IMG/VR virus record: IMGVR_UViG_3300007539_000088
Location: 1-33,621 of that record
From: a virus
Direction: 5' to 3' (one strand)
DNA: 33,621 nucleotides
Under the pieces are notes generated by a model, which was given only the letters and a program-made list of their open reading frames with translations, was not told where the DNA came from and did no database searches. The translations under genes were made by a program, and so were the position numbers. Below are positions 4,441 through 33,621 of the stretch, piece after piece; the stretch's first letter is position 1, and each line of letters opens with the position of its first letter.

Positions 4441-5997
4441 ATGTCTGACGCAATTGTTAAGAATTTAAACTTTGGCAATGAAGCCAGAGATAAAGTATTT
4501 GAAGGAATACAAAAACTCACAAAAGCCGTTAGCTCCACACTTGGGGCTAGCGGTCAATGTGTGATCCTAGAAAATGATCAAGGAAAACCTGTTATTACCA
4601 AAGATGGTGTAACGGTTGCTGATTCGGTTATACTCTTAGATCCTGTAGAAAACATGGGTGCGACGCTTTTAAAAGAAGCAGCTAGGAAAACTGTCAAAGA
4701 AGCTGGCGATGGAACAACAACGGCTACAGTGCTAGCGCACTCAATTTTAACAGAAGCCTACAAAAGATCTAAAGAAGATAATCCGAGAAATATTAAAAAT
4801 GGAATTAATTCTGCTGTAGAAAAAGCTATAAACTATTTGCAGAAAATTAGTATACCTGTTGAGGGTAAAATGCTAAACGACGTAGCTACGATTAGTTGTA
4901 ATAACGATAAAGAGCTTGGCGCTATTATTGGTGAAGCTTTTAGAACTGTAGGTGAAAACGGTGTTGTTACAATGGAGTCAACTCAAGATGATAAAACTTA
5001 TTTTGAACTTGTAGATGGTGTAGAGTATGACAAAGGATTATCTAATCCACATTTTATTACAAACGTCGAAAAAAATGTAGCTGAACTGGAAAATGCTCTT
5101 GTACTTATATTAGAATCAAGAGTTGAATCGGTTAGAAAAATACAAAGCGTACTTGAGTACGTTATAAAAGAAAAGAAACCTTTACTTATTGTTGGTGATT
5201 TAGAACAGCCAGTGTTGGCTACGCTAGCAATGAACAAAGCTAAAGGTAATTTAAAAGTTAACGTTGTTGAAGCTCCTGTGTATGGTATTAATAAAAAAGA
5301 TACACTGAGTGATCTTGCTATTTTAACAGGTGCTACAGTTATCAACGAAGATTTAGGCGATGATTTAGATGTTATACGCCCTGAGTTTTTAGGTTATTGT
5401 GATAAAGCAACAACAAGTAACGAATCAACAATTATACAAGTTGATACCGACACAGAGCAAGTTAAAGCTTTAATAGAAAGCGTTAAAGAACAACTTGATA
5501 AAGCTAAGTCTCCAGGTGAGGTAATAAGACTAGAAAAACGTTTAGCTAGACTATCTGCTAAAGTTGCGGTAGTAAAAGTTGGAGCAAACTCAGAAATTGA
5601 ATTAAAAGAAAAAGCAGATAGAGTTGAAGATGCTATCTGTGCTACTAAAGCCGCGGTAAAAGAAGGTATAGTTTCTGGTGGTGGTATAGCGCTTTTCGAT
5701 GCTTCTAAAAAGATTAAAGCTAAAAGTGTTGGTGAAGAAATACTACTTGAAGCAATAAAGGCACCATTTAATACTATACTTAAAAATGCTGGACTTGAGA
5801 ACGATGGTACGCCCAAATACGGTTATGGCGTTGATGTTATTACAGGTAAATTTGTCAATATGGTTAAAAACGGAATTATTGACCCACTGTTAGTAACTAA
5901 AAGCGCGCTTAGAAACGCGGCTTCAGTAGCTACTACTATTTTATCTACAGATTGTGTAATCAATAATTTAAGAGTTGGAGATGAAAGCAATAGGTAG
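4441..5997 (+). CDS. groEL: Phage-encoded chaperonin GroEL (Hsp60, Cpn60)
   Basis: This 518-residue group I chaperonin aligns end to end with bacterial GroEL. The ATP-site motifs are present: TLG at 33-35, KDG at 54-56, DGTTTAT at 90-96 (D90 matches E. coli D87) and VEDA with D397 matching the catalytic D398, then the GGG of the intermediate domain at 413-415. The apical domain (about 190-375) is complete. Differences from E. coli GroEL include Ala36 where the nucleotide loop normally has Pro33, and apical substitutions L200 and H204 at positions of Y199 and Y203, which bind substrate and GroES. The protein lacks the usual GGM-rich tail and ends in a polar [11 protein letters not shown]. It presumably folds phage proteins in the cytoplasm with the adjacent GroES. 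The groES gene follows rather than precedes it, the reverse of the bacterial operon. Confidence 0.97.
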
Positions 5998-6244
5998 AAA
6001 TATAGTTATAGAAATAGAAAAAGAAGACAACATTAAGAAAACTGATGGTGGTCTTATGCTTGCTAACTCACAGAGAGTCGATGTTAGGTATAAACAGGCA
6101 AAAGTTATAAACTGCGGTAGTGATGTTCAGGGTATTAAAGAAGGTGATACAGTTTATTTTGACAGAACTCACGCACATAGACTAGAGGTTGATAAAGAAG
6201 TTTATCATGTTATTACAAATCACGACGTTGTAGTTGTTTTATGA
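5981..6244 (+). CDS. groES: Phage-encoded co-chaperonin GroES (Cpn10)
   Basis: The 87-residue protein starts at the ATG at 5981, inside the last 17 bases of groEL; a TTG at 5975 would add two residues but is less likely. It has the cpn10 layout: [11 protein letters not shown] as the first strand, a mobile loop with GGLMLA in place of the usual GGIVLT, then AKVINCG, IKEGDTVYF (the conserved GD turn) and the final strand HDVVVVL. The LML triplet is the expected hydrophobic contact with the GroEL apical domain. It should cap the phage GroEL. The gene overlap suggests translational coupling, and its own stop overlaps the next start (ATGA). Confidence 0.93.
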   Translation: MKAIGRNIVIEIEKEDNIKKTDGGLMLANSQRVDVRYKQAKVINCGSDVQGIKEGDTVYFDRTHAHRLEVDKEVYHVITNHDVVVVL

Positions 6245-6681
6245 GATTAAGTGCTAGCGACATAAAAGACCTTAACTTATTAAAACACTACCGCATAATA
6301 AGGAAGTGGGCTTGTAAGAACAACGGGCTTAACGATGCTGATCTTGAATTATTAATCTATTTAGATTGCCTAGGATTGTTTAGTAAGAGAGATTTTGAGT
6401 TAGGGTCTTATTCGTATAGTTGGGACAATAGAAGATGGAATAGATTGCTTAAAGAAGGTTGGATAGTTGTGTTTAAGACTAGAGAACAAGAAGGAAGATT
6501 TAATGTATATCAAGTTTCATTTAAATGTAAGCAGCTTATACAAAGAGTGTATAGGATAATGCTTGGTGAAGAAGATATACCAACTAGCACTAGAAGAAAT
6601 AAAATAATGAAAGGTGGAAGTTATATAGATAAAGTTTTAATAACTTCCATAAAAAACGTAAACAGCGATAAAAACAGATAA
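6241..6681 (+). CDS. Winged-helix-like (MarR-like) phage protein coupled to groES
   Basis: The 146-residue protein starts in an ATGA overlap with the groES stop. It is rich in helices and basic residues: LLKHYRIIRKWACKNN, LELLIYLDCLGLF, then WNRLLKEGWIVVFKTREQEG, which looks like a recognition helix followed by a beta wing, and YQVSFKCKQLIQRVYRIMLGEEDIP. The arrangement fits a winged helix-turn-helix of the MarR type, often seen as a DNA-binding protein in Bacteroidota phages. The C-terminal TSTRRNKIMK...DKVL region is basic. Possible roles are late-gene regulation or DNA packaging; the wHTH reading is an inference from pattern alone. Confidence 0.7.
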   Translation: MRLSASDIKDLNLLKHYRIIRKWACKNNGLNDADLELLIYLDCLGLFSKRDFELGSYSYSWDNRRWNRLLKEGWIVVFKTREQEGRFNVYQVSFKCKQLIQRVYRIMLGEEDIPTSTRRNKIMKGGSYIDKVLITSIKNVNSDKNR

Positions 6682-6682
6682 T

Positions 6683-7366
6683 ATGGCTTTTAAAATGACA
6701 CCATTCCACTTAGCGCAACCTAACAAGGTACAAGGTGGTAACTACAAAAACCCTGCTACAATTATAGACAGGAGCGCTGAGATTTTAACTCGTGGATTAC
6801 AACAGGGTGTTAATAACTTTGTTGATACCTATATGGAAACTAAAGACGGTGGAGTTTCTGACAAGGAAATAAAACCAAAAATAAATAAAGAAGCTGTTGA
6901 TAAGGAATTTGAAAAAACCAATTCTGACGATGCGTTTGAAGACACTAGTTCTTATGTCAAAAAATTTAATGACTTTAAACCTGGTAACATAGAAGTAATA
7001 AAACCTGATTCTGCTGTTGCTATGCAAATTGGTAAAGGTTCTCCTAATCAATTTTTAGGAGTAACAACGGCGGGTATAGCAGGAGCTATGGGAAGAACGT
7101 CTCTTGGAAGAACTAGCTCTAGCGATTTCCAGCAAAAATTAAGAAACAGTATATTTGGTGGTGCAGCGTATGAAGCTATGCAAGCTGCACAAGCCGCACA
7201 AACTGCTGGAGGAGCCATTGTTCCAGAAGCAGCAATGAGTAGTGGAAATATAGACCCAACAAATCCTTTCGAAGGACAAACGTTTACAATTACTCCAGCT
7301 CAAATGAAAGCTAATTTAGGAGTTTTTGGTGAAAAAGAATCTAGAGACAGATCTGTTAAAAGATAA
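6683..7366 (+). CDS. Hypothetical virion-type protein sharing an N-terminal motif with the gene at 28326
   Basis: The 227-residue protein has a short lead (MAFKMTPFHLAQP) followed at about residues 20-56 by NYKNPATIIDRSAEI and GLQQGVNNF, which match the start of the large internal protein at 28326-30035 (15 of 36 aligned positions identical by hand). The middle is a charged, low-complexity linker. The second half is Gly/Ala/Gln-rich (GGAAYEAMQAAQAAQTAGG) and hydrophobic enough to be membrane-active or buried. The composition resembles small internal or structural phage proteins. The function is unknown; packaging into the virion is an inference from the shared motif. Confidence 0.65.
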   Translation: MAFKMTPFHLAQPNKVQGGNYKNPATIIDRSAEILTRGLQQGVNNFVDTYMETKDGGVSDKEIKPKINKEAVDKEFEKTNSDDAFEDTSSYVKKFNDFKPGNIEVIKPDSAVAMQIGKGSPNQFLGVTTAGIAGAMGRTSLGRTSSSDFQQKLRNSIFGGAAYEAMQAAQAAQTAGGAIVPEAAMSSGNIDPTNPFEGQTFTITPAQMKANLGVFGEKESRDRSVKR

Positions 7367-7372
7367 ATAATT

Positions 7373-7690
7373 ATGGCAAAATGTAGTAAATGTGGTTCAG
7401 TAGCTTGTATGTGTGGATCACCAAATCATATGATTGACCCAGAAATGGCGTCGGTAGGTTTAGATCCTCAATTAACAAAGGACTTACCTCTTCAAAGCAA
7501 TCAAAAAGGTAATGCTAAACCATTGTTTAACCCAGCTGTGCAAGCTTCGGCTGAAAGCATATTTGGAACTACAGAGCAAAGACAAATGTCTATGCCCGAC
7601 GCTCCTGTTTTCTTTAAAGATCAAACAGGTGATGGGCAAGTAACACAAGCTGATGTTATAAAAGCTCGTATAGAAGGTTATAAAAAATAA
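7373..7690 (+). CDS. Small protein with Cys cluster and EF-hand-like calcium loop
   Basis: The 105-residue protein starts with CSKCGSVACMCG, a CxxC-x4-CxC cluster (C4, C7, C12, C14) that could bind zinc. Its end carries DQTGDGQVTQAD at residues 83-94, a good EF-hand/dockerin-type loop with acidic or hydroxyl ligands at positions 1, 3, 5, 9 and 12 and Gly at 6, followed by a helix. The middle is Pro/Gln-rich and probably disordered. No enzyme domain is visible. Metal binding is predicted from motifs only; a structural or adaptor role is possible. Confidence 0.72.
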   Translation: MAKCSKCGSVACMCGSPNHMIDPEMASVGLDPQLTKDLPLQSNQKGNAKPLFNPAVQASAESIFGTTEQRQMSMPDAPVFFKDQTGDGQVTQADVIKARIEGYKK

Positions 7691-8184: not shown

Positions 8185-8339
8185 TGCAATCAAAAGGCTT
8201 AGGAGACGATATAGCGAAATTTACTAAAGCTACAGGTATTAAATCTATAGTTGATAAAGTTTCAGAAGGTCTTAATATACCATGCGGTTGCGCTAATAGA
8301 CAGGCTTGGTTTAACGATAAATTTCCATATAAACAATAA
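8184..8339 (+). CDS. Tiny conserved phage protein with a CGC motif (51 aa)
   Basis: This 51-residue frame begins MQSKGLGDDIAKFTKATGIK and ends NRQAWFNDKFPYKQ. It fills exactly the space between two longer genes, overlapping by one base at both ends (TAATG at 8182-8186 and 8337-8341), a strong sign that it is translated. It reads as a short amphipathic helix (DIAKFTKATGIKSIVDKVSE) followed by PCGCANRQAW, a CxC motif with conserved-looking Asn, Arg and Asn. Similar GLGD...TGI...CGC..R...LN...P miniproteins are recalled near structural genes of Bacteroidota phages. The function is unknown; CxC may bind metal. Confidence 0.8.
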   Translation: MQSKGLGDDIAKFTKATGIKSIVDKVSEGLNIPCGCANRQAWFNDKFPYKQ

Positions 8340-8659
8340 TGGCTTTTAAACTAACAAACCCACCATATTCAGTAGAACCAACTCCTATATATCAATTAGA
8401 TATGGAAGATGGTGTACTAGGTAAAGCTAACAATAACGGTACTATTATTGTAAATAAAGATGCTCCTGTTGAAATGCAACAAGAAATTATTGCTCACGAG
8501 ATGGTTCATATAAACCAAATGCGTAGAGGTGATCTTGATTATGATGATGATAATGTATATTGGAAAGGTAGAGTAATACCTAGATCTAGTATAAAAGAAG
8601 GGGCAAAGAATCTGCCTTGGGAAAAAGAAGCTTGGAAAGCTAATAAAAAATTTAAATAA
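8339..8659 (+). CDS. Minimal HExxH zinc-metalloprotease-like protein
   Basis: The 106-residue protein contains EIIAHEMVHINQM at about 49-61: an HEMVH (HExxH, H53/E54/H57) helix, the zinc-binding signature of gluzincin-type peptidases. A downstream WEKEAW segment (94-99) could supply the third ligand Glu. An acidic loop, DLDYDDDNVYWKGR, lies between. At this size it is close to the minimum for such a fold. Small HExxH proteins occur near lysis and tail genes of Bacteroidota phages. It might cleave a virion or host-envelope protein. It starts in TAATG with the tiny gene upstream. Activity is inferred from the motif only. Confidence 0.78.
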   Translation: MAFKLTNPPYSVEPTPIYQLDMEDGVLGKANNNGTIIVNKDAPVEMQQEIIAHEMVHINQMRRGDLDYDDDNVYWKGRVIPRSSIKEGAKNLPWEKEAWKANKKFK

Positions 8660-10344: not shown

Positions 10345-10571
10345 TGTCTGCTGTTATAAGAAAAATCAGCATTGGCTCTGATTATAAAAACGATGCGATG
10401 CACTACGCGTTAGGCCAACAAGTTTATGGCGGTCATGAAATATCGCATATATTATTTGAAGACCAAGACGGTTCTTATAACATATTTATAAAGAAAAACG
10501 GCGAGGTATTGCCATGGAAGAAATTTAACTCTAACATGGCAATATCCGTTGAATATGATTTAGAATATTAA
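10344..10571 (+). CDS. Hypothetical phage protein, 75 aa
   Basis: The sequence starts SAVIRKISIGSDYKNDAMHY and ends in an acidic YDLEY. It contains beta segments (HISHILFEDQDGSYNIFIKK-like pattern) and a short W-containing loop (LPWKKFN). It is a small mixed alpha/beta protein with no recognised domain. One-base overlaps with both neighbours (TAATG) show tight coupling to the upstream coiled-coil gene and the downstream GroES-like gene. Confidence 0.7.
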   Translation: MSAVIRKISIGSDYKNDAMHYALGQQVYGGHEISHILFEDQDGSYNIFIKKNGEVLPWKKFNSNMAISVEYDLEY

Positions 10572-11179
10572 TGAGAAGCGTTTTTGACTTTATAATAAAA
10601 CCTTCAAACAAACGATATGACAATGAAGTTTCCATAAATGGAAACAACCTTATTTTAAATTCTGGTATAGAAGATCATAAGTTTGTAAGTAGAGAAGCAA
10701 TTGTAATAGCAACACCAACAGCTTTTAAAACAGATATAAAAAAGGGTGATACAATAATTATTCATCATAATGTTTTTAGAAGATATTATAATCACCAAGG
10801 TGTACAAAAAGATAGTAGTAGACTATTTAACGATAACGAGTTTGTTTGCGGCATAGATCAAATATACGCTCGCAAAAATTATGATGGTTGGAAAACAATT
10901 GGTGAAAGATGCTTTGTAATGCCTATAAAAAATAATGATCCCTGGTCGTTAGAAAAAGAGAGAAAGAATATAGGTATAGTCAAGATTGGTAATAAGACGC
11001 TAGAGGCGCTAGAAATAAACGAGGGCGATCTAGTGGGCTTTAAATCTAACAGGGAATTTGAGTTTTTGATTGATGGTCAAAGACTTTATTGTATGGAATC
11101 AAATGATATATTAGTAAAACATGAGTTCAAAGGAAACGAGGAAGAATATAATCCAAGCTGGGCGGAAAGCGGTAGATGA
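10571..11179 (+). CDS. Tandem GroES-like (Cpn20-type) protein, two cpn10 folds
   Basis: The 202-residue protein reads as two GroES-like units. Unit 2 (about 108-187) has IGIVKIG, then INEGDLVGFKSN and YCMESNDILVKHE, which parallels the GroES core with its GD turn and SESDIL-type last strand (E. coli LIMSESDILAIVE). Unit 1 (about 15-102) has NGNNLILNSG like a mobile loop, then EAIVIATP, IKKGDTIIIHHNVFR and NEFVCGIDQIYARK. The phage's own GroES has the same layout (IKEGDTVYF...HDVVVVL). Unit 1 keeps a loop with LIL; unit 2 has no obvious mobile loop. Tandem cpn10 is known from plant Cpn20. It lies directly upstream of the terminase genes. Function is inferred: co-chaperonin for the phage GroEL, or a GroES fold reused for packaging or assembly. 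Confidence 0.75.
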   Translation: MRSVFDFIIKPSNKRYDNEVSINGNNLILNSGIEDHKFVSREAIVIATPTAFKTDIKKGDTIIIHHNVFRRYYNHQGVQKDSSRLFNDNEFVCGIDQIYARKNYDGWKTIGERCFVMPIKNNDPWSLEKERKNIGIVKIGNKTLEALEINEGDLVGFKSNREFEFLIDGQRLYCMESNDILVKHEFKGNEEEYNPSWAESGR

Positions 11180-21686: not shown

Positions 21687-24600
21687 ATGGCTGAAGTTAA
21701 AAACTCATTCATCAAATCAAAGATGAACAAAGACCTTGACTCAAGGTTAGTTCCTCAAGGTGAATATCGCGACGCTGTTAACATACAGGTTAGCAAGTCA
21801 GAAAGTGATGACGTTGGCGCGTTGGAAAACGTTGTAGGCAACGTGTCTGTTGCTGATTTAGAGTTAGGTATTCCTAACTTAAGTTGTATAGGTAGAAAAG
21901 TAGATGAAACAAACTCTTTAGTATATTTGTTTTTTACAGATAACCCAGACACAGGTTTTAATTATACGCCAAGCGGTGCTGGTTCTAATCATTTTATATA
22001 TAGATACAACGCTATAAGTAATACTCTAACAAAATTAGTTGAGGGTCCTTTTTTAAATTTTTCAAAAGCTTTTCCTATAACAGGTATTAATATCTTAGAA
22101 AACTTATTGTTTTTTACAGATAATAGAAATCAACCTAGAAAAATCAATGTTAATTTAGCTAACCAGTTTGGTCAAGCAAACTATTATGTTAATGAGGATC
22201 AAATATCTGTAGCCAAGTATTTTCCATACCAAGCTATAGAGGTTATAAAAGAATCTACGTTGTCTCCTGGAAATTTCGAGACAACAATGAAAGATGTATT
22301 TAGCCAATACATACCTATAGATGATTCTTCTTATATTGCAAACCCATATTGGGCTGACGAAGACCCCGCGGGTAATCCTAATTTTCCAGGTGATCCTCAA
22401 TTTTTAGAAGATAAATTTGTTAGATTTAGTTATAGATTTAAATTTGATGATGGTGAATATTCACTTATAGCTCCGTTTACTCAAGTTTGTTTTATACCAA
22501 AACAAGATGGTTATTTTTTACCAGGTGACGAACAACAAACAGTAGCAAGTACTATTGTTGAGTTTATGGAAAATAAAGTAAATGAAATAGCTTTACAAAT
22601 ACCAATGCCTAAAAAACCAGATGGTACTACAGCTACTGTTGGTGAAATAAATTCTTTGTTTAAAATAACAGAGTTAGATATTATATACAAAGAATCAGAT
22701 GGTTTAGCTTTGCAAGTTGTAGAAACAATACCAGTTTCTCAAATAACTGGTACAAGTACTGTGTTTGAATACGTGTACAATTCTACAAAACCTTATAAAA
22801 CACTTCCAGAAAATGAAATAACTAGAGTCTATGATAAAGTACCTGTAAGAGCTCTAGGGCAAGAAGTAACATCTAATAGAGTTGTGTATGCTAATTTTCA
22901 AGATAAGCACACGCCACCTTCTGGTATTGATTATCAAGTAGCTGCCACTCGTAAAAATGAAAATGGTGATGTTGGTTGGGCAAAAACAAATATAGAATAT
23001 CCTAACCACACTGTAAAACAAAATAGAAATTATCAAGTTGGAGTTGTACTTGCAGACAAGTACGGTAGACAATCTACTGTTATACTGTCAAACAACACTT
23101 CTCAAACAGATGGTGATTACGGCGCTGACACTGTATACTTGCCTTATTCTAATTCTACAGCTTATGATTCAAATGCTTTTATTGGTAATTCTTTAAAAAT
23201 ATTATTTAACAAGTTTATACAGTCTACTAAGTCTAGCGCGACTGGAGAACCTGGTCTATACAACGGTGATCCTACTGACCCAGATTACATGCCTTTAGGT
23301 TGGTACAGTTATAAAATAGTTGTTAAACAGTTGGAGCAAGAATACTACAATGTATATGCGTCTGGCGCTATGAAAGGTAGTCCTTACTACGATACCAGCA
23401 TAACCTCACCAATACCTTTAACAAATGAAAACGCATCGTTTATAACTTTATTAAATGATAATATAAATAAAGTTCCAAGAGATTTATCAGAGGTAGGACC
23501 TCAAGATAAACAGTTTAGAAGTTCTGTTGAATTATTTGGTTTGGTAGAAAATAATTTTTTCATTCCATATAATGTAAGAGGTAACAAGCAGTATTTTCCA
23601 GGTAGAAAATCTTTTACTACAAATACCATAGAAGATCTTTTTGATTTATTTGACGTAGCTGATTTTGAAGGCAGTAATAATAATCCAGTGCCTATAACAA
23701 ATACAAACAACCCATATTATGCGTTTTATAGATCCGAGTCAAATCCTTTTATAGCAGAATTTATTACTTCTCAAACACCTGCAAATCAATTTGGTACAAA
23801 TAACATAGATTATAACAATAGTCCAAACACGGAGTATCAAAAATTTGAAAACTTATCAATTTTTGAAACAAAACCAACAACGTCTAGATTAGACATATTT
23901 TGGGAATCTACGACTTCCGGTTTGATTGAAGATTTAAACACAGCTATCCAGCAAGATACCAACGGAGCGTTTGGAATAATTAACTTTAATTATGACCATG
24001 AAGAAGAGGATGGAATAGGAGCAGATGTTACAGATGAGTTTTCTTTCACTGATGTTCAAGGTTCTATAATAATACCTAACAGCACTCCGGTATTAACGTC
24101 TGTTTACGACGATTTAGATCCAAACGATAATAGAAATGGTGAATTTACCTTGGTAGAAGTTAGCCCTGGTTTTTATAAACTACAAACAGCTGATTATTTT
24201 TATTATGGTATTAATGCAGCGCAGCTTGAGTCTTATACGTTTACTTTTACAGTAGAAACTTTAGACAATAATAACCAACCCGTATTTACAACACCCTCAA
24301 TAACAGGTTCTTTAACAAACAATCCGCCCATAATAAACAACTCAAACACTAGCACAATAAACGTTACAAGAGGACAATCGTTAATACTAACAATAGACGC
24401 TGTTAACGGTTCTAATCCTTTAGGCGGTAACTCTACTAATGATTTACAGTTTGCTCTTACTAGTCAATCTCGAAACATTTTTTCTATTAGCGGTCTTCAG
24501 GTATTAAATTCAGATAACACAGCTATTGGTATTGAAAGTTTTACCTTGCAAGTTACAGACGCTGGAGGAGCTACAGCTTCAAAAACATTTAATATTAACT

Positions 24601-25709
24601 TTGGAGAGCCACCTGTTGATTCTGTATTTTCTAGCTTTGCTGATTACGAAATATACTCGGGATATGGCGCTGCTTTTTGGTTTACTGGCACCAGTGGTTT
24701 TTCAAGTTTAACAGGTAATGAGGTTAGTATTTTAGGTAGTCAACCTCCTTTTCAAGGTTGGTTAAATGGTTATGAAGCGCCATCAAGTAGTTCAAACAAC
24801 CCTGTAAATAATAATTTATGTACGTCAGGAGGTTTTGATAGCGAACCGTATTTTTACAATGAAAGAATATCTGGTGCACTTACACAAGGAACGATTTTTA
24901 TTATATTATCAGTTTCAAATGCTAGAAACATAAGCCAATCTTTATTTCAAAGTTTTGTTAATTTAAGATATAGTATACAACAGCGGCCTAATGCAAATAT
25001 TGGATGGCAACCTGTATATGATTTAAATGGTATATCCACTGTAACAACGCAACCCGCTGGAGTTCCTAGTGGTACATGGGAATGGGACGTAGCAATCCCA
25101 TCAATAGATGGTTTAATAAGTACATTTAACAATAACTATGGGTCAAACTCTGGTTTGCTTGTATCTAATAAATACACTGAAGCTGAAGGTTTCGGCGCTG
25201 ATGGCGCAAAAGTTTTTGCGTTTAACACGGTTGGTGATTATAGAATAATACTAGGTAATTTACAATCTAATTATGGTTTTTATGACACTGGTGTAAATTG
25301 CAATTATACAGGAGACTCATTTGAATCTAGCGCTGGTTTACAAATAGGTGATTTCTACAATCCTCCTAGTGATATTGCAAATCCAACTGACTTTGCTACT
25401 TATGGAAGCACTTATAGATATGAAATAGTAGGTCCTAATGCTGCGTGTTCTTCAAATTTTAATAATGTTTATAAATACGCTAAAGAACCTTTTGCAAATT
25501 ACGTTACGCAACTTTATGATGATGTAAATTTTTTACAACCATCTTCATTAACAACAGGTATATATAAATTTAGAAGAATGCAACGGGTGGATTCAGCTGA
25601 TGGTAATACTGTGTTTAATCCTGAGTATACAAAAGACGGAGCTTATACAGCTTCTTTCCTCAGCAATGGATTAGTGAATTCAATACCAACACCTTGTTTA
25701 TATTCGTAA
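21687..25709 (+). CDS. Giant beta-rich tail hub (stabilisation/muzzle-like) protein, N-terminal part
   Basis: The 1340-residue protein opens with KSKMNKDLDSRLVPQGEYRD, a motif typical of the tail hub (P22 gp10-like, crAss muzzle-type) family, and continues with beta-propeller-like repeats (LVYLFFTDN; LLFFTDNRNQPRKINV). Residues of about 880-975 look like a cadherin/Ig-type module (GQSLILTIDAVNG; IESFTLQVTDAGGA). The final part has Cys residues and aromatic-rich loops. It ends at TAA (25707-25709). The next gene starts in the same frame one codon later (GAT), so the two may form one functional unit. It would form the nozzle or hub under the portal. Confidence 0.82.
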   Translation: MAEVKNSFIKSKMNKDLDSRLVPQGEYRDAVNIQVSKSESDDVGALENVVGNVSVADLELGIPNLSCIGRKVDETNSLVYLFFTDNPDTGFNYTPSGAGSNHFIYRYNAISNTLTKLVEGPFLNFSKAFPITGINILENLLFFTDNRNQPRKINVNLANQFGQANYYVNEDQISVAKYFPYQAIEVIKESTLSPGNFETTMKDVFSQYIPIDDSSYIANPYWADEDPAGNPNFPGDPQFLEDKFVRFSYRFKFDDGEYSLIAPFTQVCFIPKQDGYFLPGDEQQTVASTIVEFMENKVNEIALQIPMPKKPDGTTATVGEINSLFKITELDIIYKESDGLALQVVETIPVSQITGTSTVFEYVYNSTKPYKTLPENEITRVYDKVPVRALGQEVTSNRVVYANFQDKHTPPSGIDYQVAATRKNENGDVGWAKTNIEYPNHTVKQNRNYQVGVVLADKYGRQSTVILSNNTSQTDGDYGADTVYLPYSNSTAYDSNAFIGNSLKILFNKFIQSTKSSATGEPGLYNGDPTDPDYMPLGWYSYKIVVKQLEQEYYNVYASGAMKGSPYYDTSITSPIPLTNENASFITLLNDNINKVPRDLSEVGPQDKQFRSSVELFGLVENNFFIPYNVRGNKQYFPGRKSFTTNTIEDLFDLFDVADFEGSNNNPVPITNTNNPYYAFYRSESNPFIAEFITSQTPANQFGTNNIDYNNSPNTEYQKFENLSIFETKPTTSRLDIFWESTTSGLIEDLNTAIQQDTNGAFGIINFNYDHEEEDGIGADVTDEFSFTDVQGSIIIPNSTPVLTSVYDDLDPNDNRNGEFTLVEVSPGFYKLQTADYFYYGINAAQLESYTFTFTVETLDNNNQPVFTTPSITGSLTNNPPIINNSNTSTINVTRGQSLILTIDAVNGSNPLGGNSTNDLQFALTSQSRNIFSISGLQVLNSDNTAIGIESFTLQVTDAGGATASKTFNINFGEPPVDSVFSSFADYEIYSGYGAAFWFTGTSGFSSLTGNEVSILGSQPPFQGWLNGYEAPSSSSNNPVNNNLCTSGGFDSEPYFYNERISGALTQGTIFIILSVSNARNISQSLFQSFVNLRYSIQQRPNANIGWQPVYDLNGISTVTTQPAGVPSGTWEWDVAIPSIDGLISTFNNNYGSNSGLLVSNKYTEAEGFGADGAKVFAFNTVGDYRIILGNLQSNYGFYDTGVNCNYTGDSFESSAGLQIGDFYNPPSDIANPTDFATYGSTYRYEIVGPNAACSSNFNNVYKYAKEPFANYVTQLYDDVNFLQPSSLTTGIYKFRRMQRVDSADGNTVFNPEYTKDGAYTASFLSNGLVNSIPTPCLYS

Positions 25710-25712
25710 GAT

Positions 25713-27164
25713 ATGGGAGCAGTAGTAGAAGTAAAGTATTTTAACTCTTTTATATTAAAGAAGGCGTTAAACGAAAGACAAGTAGGTGTAGATCAAGTGC
25801 CCACGTGGCTTGGTAGCACAGGCGTGCCTAGTGGTGAAGGCGGTGGTTATCCAGTTGTTCCCCTAGCAAACATGGAAGCACAAGATAGTTGGCTTGTAGA
25901 AGAAGCTAGAATACGTGGTGGTTACAACAATACTAATGTTGATTATGGTGTTCGAGCTTATTTAGTAGATGAAGAACCTAACTCAAGCATTAGATTTAAC
26001 TCATTAATATACTCTGGTGTATTTAACTCGCGAACGGGTATAAATAATACCAATGTATTTAGTGTAGGTGAAGATATAACCAAGTCTGCAGACCCAGCAA
26101 ATGGTAGTATACAAAAACTATATGCTGAAGATACAAACCTTAATATATTTCAAGAAAATAAAGTTAGTAGAGCACTTATAGACAAAGATGCTATATATTC
26201 CGCTGAAGGACAAGGATCAGCCGTAAGCACGCTTAATTTAGTTATAGGTCAAATTGTTCCTTATGCTGGCAACTTTGGTATTAGCAAGAACCCAGAGAGC
26301 TTTGCTGTGTATGGTTATAGAAAATACTTTGTAGATAAAAATAGAAACGCTGTATTAAGATTATCACAAGATGGTATTACTGAAATATCTAACTACGGTA
26401 TGTATGATTATTTTAGAGACCAACTAGGTAATTTAAGTTCTACAGAAAAAGCGTTGGGTGCTTGGGATATATATACAAAGCAATATGTAGTTAGCTTACA
26501 AGGACAAAACATACCTGTTGTAGGCAGTAATAGTTATCAAACACTATCGTTTGATGAGTCTGTGCTTGGTTGGACAACTAGATACACATATAAACCAGAG
26601 CAAATATTTAGCGTTAAAAATAAATATTATAGTGTGTATGAAGGTAAAGTTTGGCAACATAATTATTCTAGTAACGCAAATGATAATAGATCTATATTCT
26701 ATGATACTTACAGCGATTCAAGTATAACGTTTATATTTAATCCAAACGTTAGCGCTTCTAAAGTATTTAAAACAATAAACTATGAAGGATCTACAGGTTG
26801 GGAAGTTTCTGAATTTAATGCAGCTAGAAGCTTTGGGTTAACAGACATTTCTAACTCAATAAGACCAGATATTAACAACGAAAATCTATCTATAGTAAGT
26901 TATGACGAGGGTGGTTACACACAAGATGGTATACAATATTACGCTGGGTTTTACAAAAAAGAAGGTAAGTACTTTGCTAATCTTATAAATAATAGTCAAG
27001 AAACAGCTGGTGAGGTTATATGGGGTAGTAGTATTTCAGGTGTAAAAGGTTATTACGCGACTGTGACTATAAGAACAGATAATAGTACACAAGTAGTAGG
27101 TAGCGGCGGTAAAGCCCGAGAACTATTTGCAGTATCGTCAGAGTATGTAGAATCATCATATTAA
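25713..27164 (+). CDS. Tail hub protein, C-terminal part (stabilisation/muzzle-like)
   Basis: The 483-residue protein begins VVEVKYFNSFILKKAL and continues with EEARIRGGYNNTNVDYGVRA, FNSLIYSGVFNSRTGINNTN, and YGYRKYFVDKNRNAVLRLSQ followed by ISNYGMYDYFRDQ. These segments belong to the second half of the same tail-hub family, which is one polypeptide in several related phages. Here it is read in the same frame as 21687-25709 with only TAA and GAT between. A normal ATG is present and no Shine-Dalgarno is seen, so independent start is possible. It should pack against the upstream protein in the tail. Confidence 0.8.
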   Translation: MGAVVEVKYFNSFILKKALNERQVGVDQVPTWLGSTGVPSGEGGGYPVVPLANMEAQDSWLVEEARIRGGYNNTNVDYGVRAYLVDEEPNSSIRFNSLIYSGVFNSRTGINNTNVFSVGEDITKSADPANGSIQKLYAEDTNLNIFQENKVSRALIDKDAIYSAEGQGSAVSTLNLVIGQIVPYAGNFGISKNPESFAVYGYRKYFVDKNRNAVLRLSQDGITEISNYGMYDYFRDQLGNLSSTEKALGAWDIYTKQYVVSLQGQNIPVVGSNSYQTLSFDESVLGWTTRYTYKPEQIFSVKNKYYSVYEGKVWQHNYSSNANDNRSIFYDTYSDSSITFIFNPNVSASKVFKTINYEGSTGWEVSEFNAARSFGLTDISNSIRPDINNENLSIVSYDEGGYTQDGIQYYAGFYKKEGKYFANLINNSQETAGEVIWGSSISGVKGYYATVTIRTDNSTQVVGSGGKARELFAVSSEYVESSY

Positions 27165-27169
27165 ATTAA

Positions 27170-27577
27170 ATGGAATTAAATATACGTCGTCTTCAAGAAG
27201 AAGATTGGGATACATTATGTAGATGGTGGGAAGCATGGCCTAAATGGGTCAACCCGCCTAAAAGCTTTTTGCCTGATAATGGCAAGGGAGGATTTATGGT
27301 TGAAAAAGAAGGTAGGCCAATATGTGCAGGGTTTATATATTTAACAAACTCTGACGCGGTATTGTTAGAGTGGATTGTATCAGATCCAGAATACAGAGAT
27401 AAGGACAGGAAACAAGCGATAGAGCTATTAATAACATCGGCAGAGGAAGCTTGTAAATCGTTAGGAAAAGTGCACATGTTCAGTATTGGTCGAAATAGAC
27501 ATTTAATAGAAACGCATAAAAAATTAGGGTGGACTGTTGATGAAGATCCATCGCACGAATTAATAAAAAATATATAA
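27170..27577 (+). CDS. GNAT-family N-acetyltransferase
   Basis: The 135-residue protein has a GNAT fold outline: beta1 LNIRRLQEEDWDTLC, GFMVEKEGRPICAGFIYLTN (beta2-beta3), LEWIVSDPEYRDKDRKQAIE as the motif A pyrophosphate-binding turn (degenerate compared with the usual R/Q-x-x-G-x-G/A: Y-R-D-K-D-R, residues 75-80), then an alpha3 helix and HKKLGWTVDEDPSHELIKNI as motif B end. Acetyl-CoA-dependent acetylation of an unknown substrate is inferred. It sits inside a tail/internal protein operon, which suggests it modifies a virion protein or an early host target; this is a guess. Confidence 0.82.
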   Translation: MELNIRRLQEEDWDTLCRWWEAWPKWVNPPKSFLPDNGKGGFMVEKEGRPICAGFIYLTNSDAVLLEWIVSDPEYRDKDRKQAIELLITSAEEACKSLGKVHMFSIGRNRHLIETHKKLGWTVDEDPSHELIKNI

Positions 27578-27580
27578 ATT

Positions 27581-28306
27581 ATGGCAGTAGTAGCAGCAGT
27601 AGTGGCGGCAGGGGCTTCAGTAGTGGCTGGGGCAGTCGGAGCTAACCAAGCAAAACAAGCCGCTAAAGGAGCGAGAGGTAGAGCAGCAGCAGCAGCAGCC
27701 GAAGTTGAAGCTCTTAAAGCTAAAAGACAGACGGTTATAAACCCTTACGCTGGCGTAAAAGATCTTAGTACTATGGCGCAAGATCTTTCTAGTCAAATTA
27801 CAAACCCATATAATCAACTGGGTGTAGCTACTAAAGCTGCGGAAATGCAAGCTGAAGAAGCTGATATAGCTTTAGCAAATACATTAGATACGTTGAGAGC
27901 CACAGGTGCGTCAGCGGGTGGTGCTACAGCTCTTGCTCAAGCTGCTTTAAAATCTAAGCAAGGTATTTCGGCCAACATTGAACAACAAGAAGCTCAAAAC
28001 GAAAAATTAAAAGCTCAAGGAGAATCACAAATGCAACAGCTTAAAATGGCTGAACAACAAAGAATTCAATCTATTAAAATATCTGAAGGTCAAAGAGTTC
28101 AAGCTGCTGAAGCTGAAGGGAAAGCTTGGCAATTTACTCAAGAAGAAAATAGACTTAATGCTGATCTTGATAGAGCCGCTGGTAAAGAAGACGCTGCTAG
28201 AGCGCAACAAGCTTCAGCTAATCAAGCTAAAGCTGCTGCTTGGGGTGGTGTTGCTAGTTCTATTGGTAGCATAGCTGGTGCAGCTGCTGGTGGTGGTTTT
28301 AGTTGA
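27581..28306 (+). CDS. Internal virion/ejection-type protein, Ala-rich
   Basis: The 241-residue protein has an N-terminal hydrophobic Ala/Val/Gly segment (VVAAVVAAGASVVAGAVGAN), a long Ala/Gln/Glu-rich helical region (QLKMAEQQRIQSIKISEGQR) and a second Gly/Ala-rich hydrophobic tail (VASSIGSIAGAAAGGGFS). This is the pattern of small internal virion proteins such as T7 gp14, that insert in the host membrane during DNA ejection. It is followed by two larger proteins that also look internal. No enzymatic motif is visible. Confidence 0.7.
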   Translation: MAVVAAVVAAGASVVAGAVGANQAKQAAKGARGRAAAAAAEVEALKAKRQTVINPYAGVKDLSTMAQDLSSQITNPYNQLGVATKAAEMQAEEADIALANTLDTLRATGASAGGATALAQAALKSKQGISANIEQQEAQNEKLKAQGESQMQQLKMAEQQRIQSIKISEGQRVQAAEAEGKAWQFTQEENRLNADLDRAAGKEDAARAQQASANQAKAAAWGGVASSIGSIAGAAAGGGFS

Positions 28307-28325
28307 TAATAAATAAAATATAAAA

Positions 28326-30035
28326 ATGAGTTATAGAAACCCACAGATAATTTTAGATCGCTCTGCAGAATTTATGATTCAAGGTTTTCAAAAATCTAGT
28401 GAAAATTTTTTATCTAATTTCATGAAGTATAGAGATAAGCAAAGAGAAGCTGAAAAAGCTGTTCAAAAACAATTGCAAGCTAAACAGTTGTATAGTAACA
28501 AAGCGTTTCTTGAGCGGATAAAGCAATATGATGAAACAGTCGCTGCTTCAGGCATAAAAGATAAAGCGTTTTTAGAGCAATTTAAAGAGGTTGCTATAAA
28601 TCAAATGACTACTGGTGAGTTGTTTAAATATAAGGGTGTTGATTATAACATTGGTGCTATAGATGCCAAAACAGAATTAGCGTTAAATCCAAATCTAACA
28701 TCGGATCAAAGAGCCGCTTACTCTATGATTGTTAGTAACTCAGAGCAATTTCAAAAACAAACACTAGAAGCAGCTGGTGCCGTTATAGCTGGGTTAAAAC
28801 CATTAGAAGATCAGTCGCCTTACACCATTGGCACTAACTTTGATTTTGCTGGCACTGGTAAAGAAGAATTTCAAAACATGGTAGCTTCAAATGCTTTATT
28901 AAACAGACAAGCTCAAGGTGTTAAAGTTAATAAAAAATTTAGTAGAGTTGCAAACGATAATGGTACTTATGATAATATGATGAGTATATCTGCTAGTTTT
29001 GATACTAATAGTGATTTATGGAAACGTATGAAAAATATGTATCCTGAGCTTGAAGATTCAGACGCTACTTTTGAGTGGAAAAGAAATGTTGATAAATTCG
29101 CTGAAGGAGGTTCGTTGTTAACGAATTTAGGTGAATTTGATATGGGCACCAACGAAGCTTTAAGAGCTTCTCAATACATAGATGAAAATAATAATCCAAC
29201 TAAAAAAGGTTTAATAGAGCAAACTGTAACTAGAAAACCTACAAAAAGAGGTCTTAAAACTTACCAAGTAGAAGAAACACATTTTGATCCAGATATGTTG
29301 TGGAACGATAGGGTTTATAATGATACTATAAACGCTAAGATAGATGGTTTTATGACTATGCCACAAGATCAGATTTGGAAATACATGCAGTACAATTTAC
29401 CTTTACCGGATTCTAGTTCAGCTGCTAAAGAAAGGTTTTTTAATGCAGATCCAGCAAAACAAAAAGCTTATCTCAGTGATCTTATAAAACAAAAAGACGT
29501 AAGTAGATTATACGGTGCTGATTATAAATCTAGAATAGTTACACAAGAAGATGTTGATTTTTATAGAAAAAATGGTATTGAAATAGATTTACAAACTGAA
29601 AGTGGTTTACCTACAGCTATTTATTACAAAGAAAAAGCCACGGATATTACTAGTCAAATAGAAAAGCAAGTTAAAGACACAAAAGAAAAACAAGCTGTTG
29701 ATATAAGCTATATAGAAGATCTTAAAATACCCATACAGGAAGGTCCTGCTGAAGAAAGTGGTAAAAGATATGTTGATTTAGATGAACTTGAAAACTCGTT
29801 AAACGCTAAAGGCTTTGTTGTTAAGAAGGCAGAACAAGTTGGGCCTAGAGGAGTTAATAAAATTACTATAACTAAATCTGTATCTGGAGCTGACAACCAA
29901 GCTACAATAAACGAGGAAATGACACCTCAAGAAATAAAAGATCTTTTAGAACTCGTAGAAACAGGTAAAATGCCTGCTAAAAAAGGTGATAATACAAATG
30001 TAGATTCTACGCAGTATAAAGGTATATATTTATAG
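28326..30035 (+). CDS. Internal virion/ejection-type protein, 569 aa
   Basis: The N-terminus (SYRNPQIILDRSAEFMIQGF, then KSSENFLSNFM) matches the N-terminus of the gene at 6683-7366. A charged coiled coil follows (KQREAEKAVQKQLQAKQ), then mixed helical and beta parts with NTNSDLWKRMKNMYPELE-like and DQIWKYMQYNLPLPDS segments. The C-terminus is helical and acidic. No known enzyme motif is seen. It lies between the Ala-rich protein and the giant polyvalent protein, a typical order for DNA-ejection proteins of podoviruses. Size and composition resemble the middle ejection protein; the role is inferred. Confidence 0.7.
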   Translation: MSYRNPQIILDRSAEFMIQGFQKSSENFLSNFMKYRDKQREAEKAVQKQLQAKQLYSNKAFLERIKQYDETVAASGIKDKAFLEQFKEVAINQMTTGELFKYKGVDYNIGAIDAKTELALNPNLTSDQRAAYSMIVSNSEQFQKQTLEAAGAVIAGLKPLEDQSPYTIGTNFDFAGTGKEEFQNMVASNALLNRQAQGVKVNKKFSRVANDNGTYDNMMSISASFDTNSDLWKRMKNMYPELEDSDATFEWKRNVDKFAEGGSLLTNLGEFDMGTNEALRASQYIDENNNPTKKGLIEQTVTRKPTKRGLKTYQVEETHFDPDMLWNDRVYNDTINAKIDGFMTMPQDQIWKYMQYNLPLPDSSSAAKERFFNADPAKQKAYLSDLIKQKDVSRLYGADYKSRIVTQEDVDFYRKNGIEIDLQTESGLPTAIYYKEKATDITSQIEKQVKDTKEKQAVDISYIEDLKIPIQEGPAEESGKRYVDLDELENSLNAKGFVVKKAEQVGPRGVNKITITKSVSGADNQATINEEMTPQEIKDLLELVETGKMPAKKGDNTNVDSTQYKGIYL

Positions 30036-30048
30036 GAAATTAAATAGT

Positions 30049-33000
30049 ATGAACGAAGATCAAATTCAAGAGTTAAAAGTCTTAGTAGATGAACTAAAAT
30101 CTAAAGGTTTATCTACAGAAGAGATTCAAACTAAAGTTGACGAACGTAAAGCTACTTTTACAGAGGGAAAGACAAACGACACTGTGGAAACGGGTGCACC
30201 TGCGGTGTCGGAAACCGGGCAAGCACCCGAGAGTACGGAATTAGAGTCGGTAGATACTTCTTTGGAATCACAACAAATAGATAACTCTCCAGAAGCTATA
30301 TTTAAAAGACGTAAACAAGCAGCTCTTGACCAAGCAGCTATAGATAAGTTTGGTGAAATAGAACTTGAAGAAGTTGTGGTAACAGCTGATGACTCTGATA
30401 GAACTCCAGAGGATTTGCTAGAAAATATACAAAAAATAGATGATAGAATAAAACTTCTAGCTGGAGATGATATGCAGATCGACGCGTTAGATTCTCCAAA
30501 GCGTATAAGTGAATACAACAACTTGTTAAACCGTAGAAAACAAGTTAATAAAACTTTGAATGAAAAGCTAAAAGAAGAAGGTACATTTAAATCTTTATAT
30601 AGAGTTTTACGTAAAGCTGATAAAGGTTTGGGTGAGACTATATTATCTATGCCTTCTTTTATTTATGAAGTAGGATCATTAGTAAGTGATCCCGTAAATA
30701 GAGCTTTAGGTTTACCTGAAACAGATTTAAAAAAATTCGAAGAAACTATAGGTACTAGACCTTTATTAGATTCACTAATAGAAGAGCAAGAAAAGTTAGG
30801 TGCTTTGCAGCAACAGTATAAAGATTTATACGATATAGAAGGAGGTATTGGAGAAAACTTTAAAAAAGGCAATTGGTCTGATGGTTTTTATTTGCTAGGT
30901 GAAGCGTTGGTTGAATCAGCGCCTGTTAGTTTATCTTTAATGGTTGGTGGAGCAGCTGGCTTATCACGCACTGCTTTAACTTTAGGTGGTGGTCTACCTC
31001 TTGCTGCTGGTGAAATGAGAACTCAACTAGAAGAATTTCCTGAAGATACTAAAGGAGAAATGCTTTTGAAGTCTACACTAATAGGAATATCTGAAGGGTT
31101 TTTTGAAGGGGTATTTGGAGCTGGTGCTGCTGGTAAGGTTTATAAAAACATGGTCAAAGATCTTGGCGAAGAACAAGCTAAGAAAACATTTAAGCAGAGT
31201 ATTACGTCTATGTATGAAGCTGCTTTACAAAAAAGTGGTATTCCTTTAGCCGCTGTTGGTAATGGTTTAGAAGAAGTAGGTACACAAGCTACGCAAAACA
31301 TGGTTAATGGTAAGCCTTGGAACGAAGGTTTAACTGATGCTTTTTTAACAGGTGTTGGTGGTGGTGCTCTATATGGTGCACCAGTAAATTTATCTAAAGG
31401 TGTACAGCTTGGTAGAGAAACTTATCAATCAATAAAAGCAGATATGCTTTTAAAACCTACTGAATTTAAAAGTGTTAGTCAAGCTTTTGCTACAGATGTA
31501 CCAACAAGTGAAGTTCAAATAAAACTAAGTCAATCGCCTAGCGCTGAAAAAGTTTTAACTAGACAATTAAAAAAAGAAGTTCAAAAAGGTAATTTAACTG
31601 CAGAGCAAGCAGGCGAAATAGAATTAAACTTTAGACAAACGCAAGGTGCTGTTAATCAACTTAAACCTTTAAATTTAAATGAGCAAGATCAAGGTGAAAT
31701 TGTAGAGCTTGTTAAAGAAAAAAATAAACTTCAGCAAGAAATAAAGCAAGTAAACGAACCTGCTTTAACAGAACCTCAAGATCAAAGAGTTAAAGAAATA
31801 AATGATTTACTTAGAGACTTTAGTGCTAAAGCCAAGCTTAAAGAAACTGCTAAAATAGAAAGCATAGCAAAGCAAATAGATAAAGTAGGAGTTAAAACTT
31901 TATCTATAGAAGAAATACAAAACTATCTACAAGATAATAACCTTGTAAAAAATCAAGAAGACGCTATTAAAAAATCTGGTGAAGGAGCTTTTATAATACA
32001 AAATCCAGATACTCAAGAACAAGAAATAATAGTAAATAAAGATATAGGTAGTATATCAGATCCTTCTCATGAGGCATTACATGCTCTTATATTTCAAACT
32101 GTTAGGAAAAGTCCAGATACAGCAAGAAGATTAGGTGAGTCTTTACAAGAGCAATTAAATAAGATTGATTCTAATTTAATAGAAGATTCTGGCATACGTG
32201 AAAGACTAGAGTTATACAACCAAGATCCTACAGCGGTGCAGATGGAAGAGGTATTAACATTGTTTTCTGATACTGTTAGAAACGGTACTGTTAAATTTAA
32301 TGATAACGCGTTCACAAAAATAGGTGATTTTATCCGTCAGTTCTTAAGTAGCTTAGGTGTTAAAGCTAAGTTTAATAATGGTCGTGATGTATATAACTTT
32401 ATAAAAGATTACAACAAAAGCATAGAGTCTGGTAAATTAACTAGAGGCCAAGTGCGCGCGGCTAAAGAAGGTATAACAGGTAAATTAGTTGGACCTAAAG
32501 TAGAAACATTTGACGATGCTGCTATAATTAAAGAAGCTAGATCAGATGAAGCTTCGCAGCGTGTTCAAGAAATATACGATCAACAAGGTGTTGCTGGTGC
32601 CTTTGATATTATAGAACAGTTTAAGCCTATTACAAGTAAACTTGTGGAGCGCAGAAGTGAAGCTCCAGGTTTTGACAGACAATTACTTACGGACGAAATA
32701 GAAACTGGGCAACGTGGTATAATAGATTTAATTAGTGAATATAATCCAGATTCTGGTGTACCGCTCGCAGCTTATATAAATAAATTTTTACCAGCTCGAG
32801 CAATTGAAGCATCGAAAAGAGTTCTTGGCGAAGAGTTTACTGAAGATGTATCTGAAGCAAGAGGTGTTGCTGCAGAAGAAGTTACCGTTACTGAAACACC
32901 AACAAAACCAGAAGCAAAAGCTATTGATCCATTTAGGATTATGCCTGACGTTAAAGAAACTGCTACAGCTGAAGTACAAAAAAGTATTACAGATAAAGGC

Positions 33001-33621
33001 GTAGACGTTACAGAGGTTACATATAAGGAGCTTAAAGATATTGCGCCATACCAAACAGTAGCAGACTTTTTTGGTATACCTGTAAGTCGTATTTCAAACC
33101 CTAAAGACAACTTACGTAAGTCAGACAACATAGCAAATATACAGCGTTGGATATTAAAAAACGAACCTACACTTAAAAATTTATTTACTGAAGCTAATAG
33201 AGAAGTAGTTGAAATAAAAGAAGGTAATAGAGTTGTACGTAAAGGTGGTGAACCAACTGCTATACCTAGAAACTTACTTAATAAGTTTTACACTAAAGGC
33301 GAGCGTGTTGGTAATAACTTTCAGTGGAAACTTAAACCATATGATCGTAATACTTTCTTAGAATCTGTAGGTATTAAAGACGGTAAGGTTGATCCTAACT
33401 TTACACCGCGTGCTGCTGAAGCTCAAACTATTAAAGGTATACTAGACATGTATACTAGAAACTTAGGTAACGTAACTGCAAGAGATATTATAGAAGGCCG
33501 TGAAGATATTGCGCCAGCTGAAAAAGCTAGAGCAAAAGCAGAGGTTGCCAAAGGTAAACCACGTTTGATGTTTAGTAAAAACATTGATACAAACATTGAA
33601 GACAATAGATTTTCACAAATA
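30049..33621 (+). CDS. Giant multidomain (polyvalent/ejection-type) protein, 3' truncated by window end
   Basis: The frame starts at the ATG 14 bases after the previous stop and stays open to the last base, so at least 1191 codons are present and the gene continues beyond. Visible parts in order: acidic disordered N-terminus (1-120); coiled coils; Gly/Ala-rich hydrophobic segments near 290-320, 347-362 and 395-450 that may insert in membranes; helical charged region 480-620; HEALH at 674-678 (zinc-protease signature) after SISDPS; a segment at 890-921 with EYNPDSGVPLAAYINKFLPA; a conserved-looking domain from about 1000 (VADFFGIPVSRIS; NNFQWKLKPYDRNTF; TIKGILDMYTRNLG); and KPRLMFSKN near the end. 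Such proteins are carried by marine podoviruses and myoviruses as large polyvalent, probably ejected proteins. Confidence 0.88.
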   Translation, partial: MNEDQIQELKVLVDELKSKGLSTEEIQTKVDERKATFTEGKTNDTVETGAPAVSETGQAPESTELESVDTSLESQQIDNSPEAIFKRRKQAALDQAAIDKFGEIELEEVVVTADDSDRTPEDLLENIQKIDDRIKLLAGDDMQIDALDSPKRISEYNNLLNRRKQVNKTLNEKLKEEGTFKSLYRVLRKADKGLGETILSMPSFIYEVGSLVSDPVNRALGLPETDLKKFEETIGTRPLLDSLIEEQEKLGALQQQYKDLYDIEGGIGENFKKGNWSDGFYLLGEALVESAPVSLSLMVGGAAGLSRTALTLGGGLPLAAGEMRTQLEEFPEDTKGEMLLKSTLIGISEGFFEGVFGAGAAGKVYKNMVKDLGEEQAKKTFKQSITSMYEAALQKSGIPLAAVGNGLEEVGTQATQNMVNGKPWNEGLTDAFLTGVGGGALYGAPVNLSKGVQLGRETYQSIKADMLLKPTEFKSVSQAFATDVPTSEVQIKLSQSPSAEKVLTRQLKKEVQKGNLTAEQAGEIELNFRQTQGAVNQLKPLNLNEQDQGEIVELVKEKNKLQQEIKQVNEPALTEPQDQRVKEINDLLRDFSAKAKLKETAKIESIAKQIDKVGVKTLSIEEIQNYLQDNNLVKNQEDAIKKSGEGAFIIQNPDTQEQEIIVNKDIGSISDPSHEALHALIFQTVRKSPDTARRLGESLQEQLNKIDSNLIEDSGIRERLELYNQDPTAVQMEEVLTLFSDTVRNGTVKFNDNAFTKIGDFIRQFLSSLGVKAKFNNGRDVYNFIKDYNKSIESGKLTRGQVRAAKEGITGKLVGPKVETFDDAAIIKEARSDEASQRVQEIYDQQGVAGAFDIIEQFKPITSKLVERRSEAPGFDRQLLTDEIETGQRGIIDLISEYNPDSGVPLAAYINKFLPARAIEASKRVLGEEFTEDVSEARGVAAEEVTVTETPTKPEAKAIDPFRIMPDVKETATAEVQKSITDKGVDVTEVTYKELKDIAPYQTVADFFGIPVSRISNPKDNLRKSDNIANIQRWILKNEPTLKNLFTEANREVVEIKEGNRVVRKGGEPTAIPRNLLNKFYTKGERVGNNFQWKLKPYDRNTFLESVGIKDGKVDPNFTPRAAEAQTIKGILDMYTRNLGNVTARDIIEGREDIAPAEKARAKAEVAKGKPRLMFSKNIDTNIEDNRFSQI

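Follow-up and report, generated by a model that had tools for sequence, protein, structure and literature searches.

A conserved head peptide on a putative ejection protein and on a small mosaic protein of flavophage-like podoviruses: a possible reusable docking tag

Two proteins encoded 21 kb apart in the 33,621-nucleotide stretch of viral DNA analysed here (hereafter the window) share a short conserved segment, the head, with the core YxNPxxI(I/V)DRSAE, on otherwise unrelated bodies. In the product of the gene at 28326, a putative ejection protein, the head forms the N-terminus; in the product of the gene at 6683 the same peptide is joined to a small, fast-changing, predicted-disordered mosaic protein. 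The arrangement suggests that a single docking tag may be reused among proteins packaged in the virion. The features concerned are the following:

6241 to 6681, plus strand: conserved upstream neighbour that anchors the 6683 locus, 31% identical to phi38:1 gp78
6683 to 7366, plus strand: small mosaic, predicted-disordered protein of 227 aa with a grafted head (the 6683 type)
6743 to 6847, plus strand: head in 6683, residues 21-55, YKNPATIIDRSAEILTRGLQQGVNNFVDTYMETKD, with the core YxNPxxIIDRSAE
6800 to 7280, plus strand: variable middle of 6683, an exchanged cassette as judged by DNA identity to contig G001
7259 to 7363, plus strand: C-terminal module of 6683, TNPFEGQTFTITPAQMKANLGVFGEKESRDRSVKR, which occurs without the head in relatives
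7373 to 7690, plus strand: neighbour with a related P.FN......A..[IV]FG....RQ.S module
27581 to 28306, plus strand: gene for a core-like protein, directly 5' of the head-bearing gene in relatives
28326 to 30035, plus strand: putative ejection or internal virion protein of 569 aa with the head as its N-terminus
28332 to 28436, plus strand: head in 28326, residues 3-37, YRNPQIILDRSAEFMIQGFQKSSENFLSNFMKYRD
30049 to 33621, plus strand: start of the gene for a giant virion-type protein, the frame being open to the window end

The window is a fragment of a marine, flavophage-like podovirus, with its last gene continuing past the window end. Its terminase, portal, capsid and tail proteins show affinity with the short-tailed phages of Flavobacteriia: the terminase is 63% identical to that of MW202828 and about 46% identical to those of the Flavobacterium elemo phages, and the Cellulophaga phages (phi38:1, Calle) and the Maribacter phage Panino are more distant. 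Neither the 6683 nor the 28326 product matched anything in 50,697 annotated phage records, and the comparison is for this reason based on IMG/VR contigs. Both products were also without a significant match in Pfam or PHROGs, a sequence match in the PDB, or a significant fold match in the PDB and BFVD.

In a BLASTP comparison, residues 21-55 of 6683 align without gaps to residues 3-37 of 28326, with 15 of 35 positions identical (43%) and 24 of 35 similar (E=1e-8 in the single comparison). The initial annotation, which had counted 15 identities over 36 positions, was accurate to within a residue, as were its reading frames and coordinates (the codon of Tyr21 is at 6743). When all window proteins were compared with one another, these two formed the top non-self pair (E=3.6e-7), the next pair having E=2e-4. 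The two heads have diverged to saturation at synonymous positions, which indicates that the protein sequence has been preserved and that neither head is a recent copy of the other's DNA. The accompanying statement that the rest of the two proteins does not match was borne out by profile searches: a 28326-family profile deprived of the head gave no significant match to 6683-type proteins (best E about 0.5), and the full profile reaches them only via the head residues and the start of the next helix. The head peptide can be written as YRNPQIILDRSAEF with the helix after it. Taken at the level of sequence, these comparisons establish the two heads as homologous. That their likeness arose by chance, or because both converged on a common way of starting a coiled coil, is very improbable. 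The core can match unrelated proteins, as seen from (N)YDNPRLI(I/V)DRK within an unrelated nuclease-like protein of many other IMG/VR contigs (L172-L193), a chance match that limits searches using the short core alone; against chance in the present case stand the E value of 1e-8 across 35 ungapped residues and the recovery of 6683-type proteins by an independent head profile made from 28326-type proteins only, with E values of 1e-5 to 7e-9.

A scan of 2.9 million IMG/VR contigs for exact matches to the motif pattern returned 36 N-termini of 28326-type proteins among 40 matches, along with three 6683-type proteins and a single unrelated protein. Further 6683-type carriers were found by a second pattern and a family search, and the type is represented in the window and seven IMG/VR contigs (G001, L163, L169, L257, L268, L271 and L314), with L163 and L169 encoding an identical protein. 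The 6683 type was the sole second carrier class of the head found: a head profile built from 28326-type proteins with the window's clade excluded retrieved, at E<0.01, only 28326-type and 6683-type proteins among 10,131 frames from 39 records. A stricter motif pattern was absent from 84,980 bacterial and archaeal genomes, giving no sign of a prophage or host origin. In the 6683 type the motif is internal, lying at residue ~21-28 after GG(N/S), and so is not at the extreme N-terminus. The initial annotation had named, as an outcome that would undo its proposal, the confinement of the motif to one full-length family with the small gene as its truncated duplicate; most matches (36 of 40) do belong to the N-terminus of one family, but the small gene is no truncated duplicate (see below).

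In the relatives of the window, proteins of the 28326 family have YxNPxxI(I/V)DRSAE at the N-terminus; their gene sits between a small core-like gene of the 27581 type and a giant virion-type gene. Only Y3, N5 and P6 are invariant columns among 27 members of the family, a figure biased by the many members found through the motif. An unbiased, motif-blind set of 11 proteins was assembled by choosing relatives by terminase alone and then taking the gene after the 27581 homologue. In this set residues 1-14 have the top conservation (0.50, against a mean of 0.27 and 0.38 for the next-best separate stretch), and the Tyr and Pro are kept in 10 of the 11 proteins; G008 and G017 have no clear head. 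The N-termini in the terminase-chosen relatives include MSYTNPRRIVDKR, MSAYDNPTIIKDES, MSYENPQRIVNRA, MSYKNPSRIINRQ, MGAYENPPPI, MGYYENPPII and others, and most of the bodies that follow them are unmatched to the window by BLAST. The motif is at the extreme N-terminus in nearly all 28326-type proteins, the exception being G011 with an extension of ~17 residues. In the AlphaFold model of 28326 (mean pLDDT 79.6) residues 1-26 score below 50, and a helix of 55 residues spans positions 21-75; a conserved segment that is predicted not to fold alone would be typical of a partner-binding peptide. In one relative (G059, also L180), at 33518-35240, the 28326-type gene is split between two overlapping frames, one of 52 residues that holds the head and stops after a stretch of serines and one that carries the 28326-type body; this is a frameshift or a sequencing error.

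The 28326 family is likely to comprise ejection or internal virion proteins, a class assigned because of the gene order, in which a tail gene is followed by an acetyltransferase-like gene, the core-like gene, the 28326-type gene and the giant gene. The syntenic genes gp98-gp101 of phi38:1 are annotated as structural, gp100 being at the counterpart position of 28326, and membership among podovirus ejection proteins is indicated by such syntenic annotation in phi38:1 and Calle_1 only. Callevirus phi38:1 gp99/gp100 and Elemovirus gp23/gp22 have the same order and position as 27581/28326, the order common to all three being an acetyltransferase-like protein, a core-like protein, a protein of ~450-550 aa and a giant protein. 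Unlike the window's protein, phi38:1 gp100 and Elemovirus gp22 are devoid of the YxNP head; profile comparison did not connect 28326 to either of them or to the MW202828 protein, and lends homology no support, so that the name 'ejection protein' derives from gene order. A search of the literature for virion proteomics of a close relative yielded only methylation data for phi38:1, and none on gp99-gp101.

The 6683 gene, in contrast, belongs to a locus of small mosaic proteins. It lies between the chaperonin genes and the terminase, within a same-strand cluster running into the terminase and portal, and wherever the neighbourhood was mapped a 6683-type gene comes after the 6241 gene. Most relatives encode at this position a small protein without the head, the 6683-type head being a minority state at the locus, and several of these headless proteins end in NPFxG(Q/R)xFxI(T/S)PxQM and P.FN......A..FG....RQ.S modules. 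The 6683 protein resembles them both in its position after 6241 and in the shared C-terminal modules, NPFxG(Q/R)xFxI(T/S)PxQM or FG....RQ.S. It shares neither the place nor the body of the 28326 family: its gene is 21 kb away, and it has no homologous body of ~530 aa, both this body and the location between 27581 and the giant gene being present in 28326 itself. A truncated duplicate of 28326 was considered as the origin of 6683 and rejected, given the body unrelated by profile and the headless small proteins with the same modules at the same position. As far as the sequences tell, the conserved peptide became attached to a different protein, one that is small, disordered and mosaic, and in the simplest history a headless small protein would have gained the head. 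The AlphaFold model of 6683 is of low confidence throughout and has the same unfolded-then-helix layout as 28326; the middle of the protein is Ala/Gly/Gln-rich and predicted to be disordered. In L163, L257, L268, L271 and L314 the 7373-7690 neighbour is fused to the 6683-type protein, and in the head of L314 the YRNP is replaced by YRRP. A further short module, P.FN......A..[IV][FY]G....RQ.S, is also shared: it is present in the 7373-7690 product, at the C-terminus of 6683-7366 and in L201-L219; together with NPFxG(Q/R)xFxI(T/S)PxQM and SPNKFLG it occurs in varying combinations in the small proteins of the locus. The C-terminus of the 7373-7690 product, FFKDQTGDGQVTQADVIKARIEGYKK, is like an EF-hand or dockerin calcium loop and recurs in several relatives.

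Within the 6683 type, comparison of the window with L163 over the 15-codon head core gives pS 0.80 and pN 0.13, evidence from substitution patterns that the core is under purifying selection. The middle of the protein behaves as a swappable cassette when the window is aligned to G001. The genes adjoining 6683 are 95-100% identical in protein between the two, and from about 6800 to 7280 DNA identity is mostly 35-70%, with one 60-base block at 85% and flanks mostly at 90-100%. The edges of the cassette are sharp, one just 3' of the head core and the other just 5' of the C-terminal module. Several tail and ejection genes of G001 also differ from those of the window, and such exchange is hence not unique to 6683; over 21687-33621 tail and ejection genes are 37-88% identical and capsid and packaging genes 94-98%, marking a boundary of modular exchange around the tail genes. 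Scored against 28326 heads, the 6683 head of the window reaches 84 within its own clade and at most 70 outside it; for G001 the corresponding scores are 78 and 62. The better match within the clade suggests co-adaptation, with two related genomes being too few for more than a suggestion, and gene conversion or common descent could account for it in place of co-adaptation to a partner.

A short conserved head, its unrelated bodies, its recurrence, the purifying selection on it and its predicted unfolded state together make it resemble a docking or targeting peptide. The initial annotation had proposed such a peptide, for example for entry into the capsid or binding to the portal or internal core, and the peptide itself is favoured by these features, including its occurrence in independent phages; binding, the partner (capsid, portal or core), a place for the 6683 protein in the virion and a delivery or tethering role are what we infer from them. 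Under the reading we prefer, to which we give about an even chance, the head is a docking peptide common to the 28326-type ejection protein and the small accessory 6683 protein, which would serve as a tether. In the 28326-type protein, YxNPxxI(I/V)DRSAE and the start of the next helix would do the docking: this N-terminal strand, unfolded by itself, might take up its fold on a conserved component of the assembling head, portal or tail. A sub-lineage would have this peptide joined also to the small disordered 6683 protein, which could then occupy the binding site of the 28326 head, or a second copy of that site, and so link to the ejection complex any partner that binds its C-terminal module.

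A precedent for conserved segments on diverse packaged proteins is offered by phage T4, in which the internal proteins IPI-III and Alt carry a short conserved capsid targeting sequence (CTS) (PMC3012670, PMC5694885). The likeness consists in a short conserved segment common to otherwise unrelated, variable proteins of one phage, the T4 proteins being associated with the virion interior; no sequence relation is claimed, and in contrast to the CTS the head belongs to a conserved large protein and is internal in the 6683 type (residue ~21-28) rather than at the extreme N-terminus. Neither cleavage nor a prohead protease was detected: the S78 and S14 families gave no match in 10 related contigs, in searches for which positive controls worked, and no S77 protease was seen in a search run without a positive control. 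Because of the internal segment and the absence of a detected protease, membership of the head in the T4 CTS type is not claimed. In crAss001, segments of cargo proteins dock inside the portal and tail barrel (PMC10172136). There the two cargo genes C1/C2 (gp45, gp46) lie between the muzzle and giant RNAP-associated genes, an arrangement comparable to the gene order around 27581, 28326 and the giant gene; the C1 segments described as docked come from within the protein (residues 214-245 and 425-552), and a further segment of 14 residues, at the muzzle, is unassigned (PMC10172136). The proteins of the window differ from C1/C2 in giving no PDB sequence match or significant fold match.

Two of the rival explanations likewise give the head a binding function; they part from the tether in the use that the 6683 protein makes of it. 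The head could be a true signal for entry into the virion, in which case the 6683 product would be a variable payload delivered along with the DNA, like the T4 internal proteins, which are diverse with only the targeting sequence conserved (PMC3012670). We regard this as unlikely. It would suit a constant head with an exchanged middle, and the location of the gene in the cluster leading to the terminase and portal, but the Ala/Gly/Gln-rich, predicted-disordered middle offers no folded effector, the C-terminus of the 6683 type varies no more than the head, the motif lies inside the protein, and the S78 and S14 protease families went unmatched with working controls. Slightly less probable again is an unpackaged assembly factor, with a head that would hold the 28326 binding site or recruit 28326-type assemblies during morphogenesis, before the protein leaves. 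The location between chaperonin genes and the terminase, the small proteins without a head that relatives encode in its place, and a low-complexity sequence fitting a linker or chaperone-like role are in its favour; by sequence it is indistinguishable from a packaged tether. An improbable alternative is that the shared head of 6683 has no function and was left behind when recombination fused a 28326-type 5' end to a small gene. The minority status of the head at a clearly recombinogenic locus would be expected of a relic, but the core is kept in distinct 6683-type sequences from several contigs, with synonymous positions saturated and few nonsynonymous changes, and the residues conserved in 28326 are those kept in the 6683 type.

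Outside T4 and a few models, little is known of how short-tailed phages choose the proteins that they package. A conserved peptide of ~13 residues that belongs to a presumed ejection protein, and that nature has transplanted to a second one, is a candidate for a minimal address tag. As a tentative extension of the docking reading, possible rather than probable, YxNPxxI(I/V)DRSAE with its helix may be a portable address tag for the ejection machine of flavophage-like podoviruses, such that joining the tag adds proteins to the injected or core set, the 6683 type providing natural examples with a swappable middle. If so, the tag would lead to a receptor in the portal or core, account for the recruitment of accessory proteins, and supply a handle by which cargo proteins could be recognised in the many unannotated marine flavophage genomes.

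GroEL-like and GroES-like proteins are phage-encoded at 4441-5997 and 5975-6244, and adjoining the terminase, at 10571-11179, is a second, weakly GroES-like protein, the phi38:1/elemo gene at that place being annotated as GroES. Upstream of the terminase, at 8339-8659, the cluster encodes a small protein with a zincin-like HEMVH motif (a weak PF20573 match), possibly a protease.
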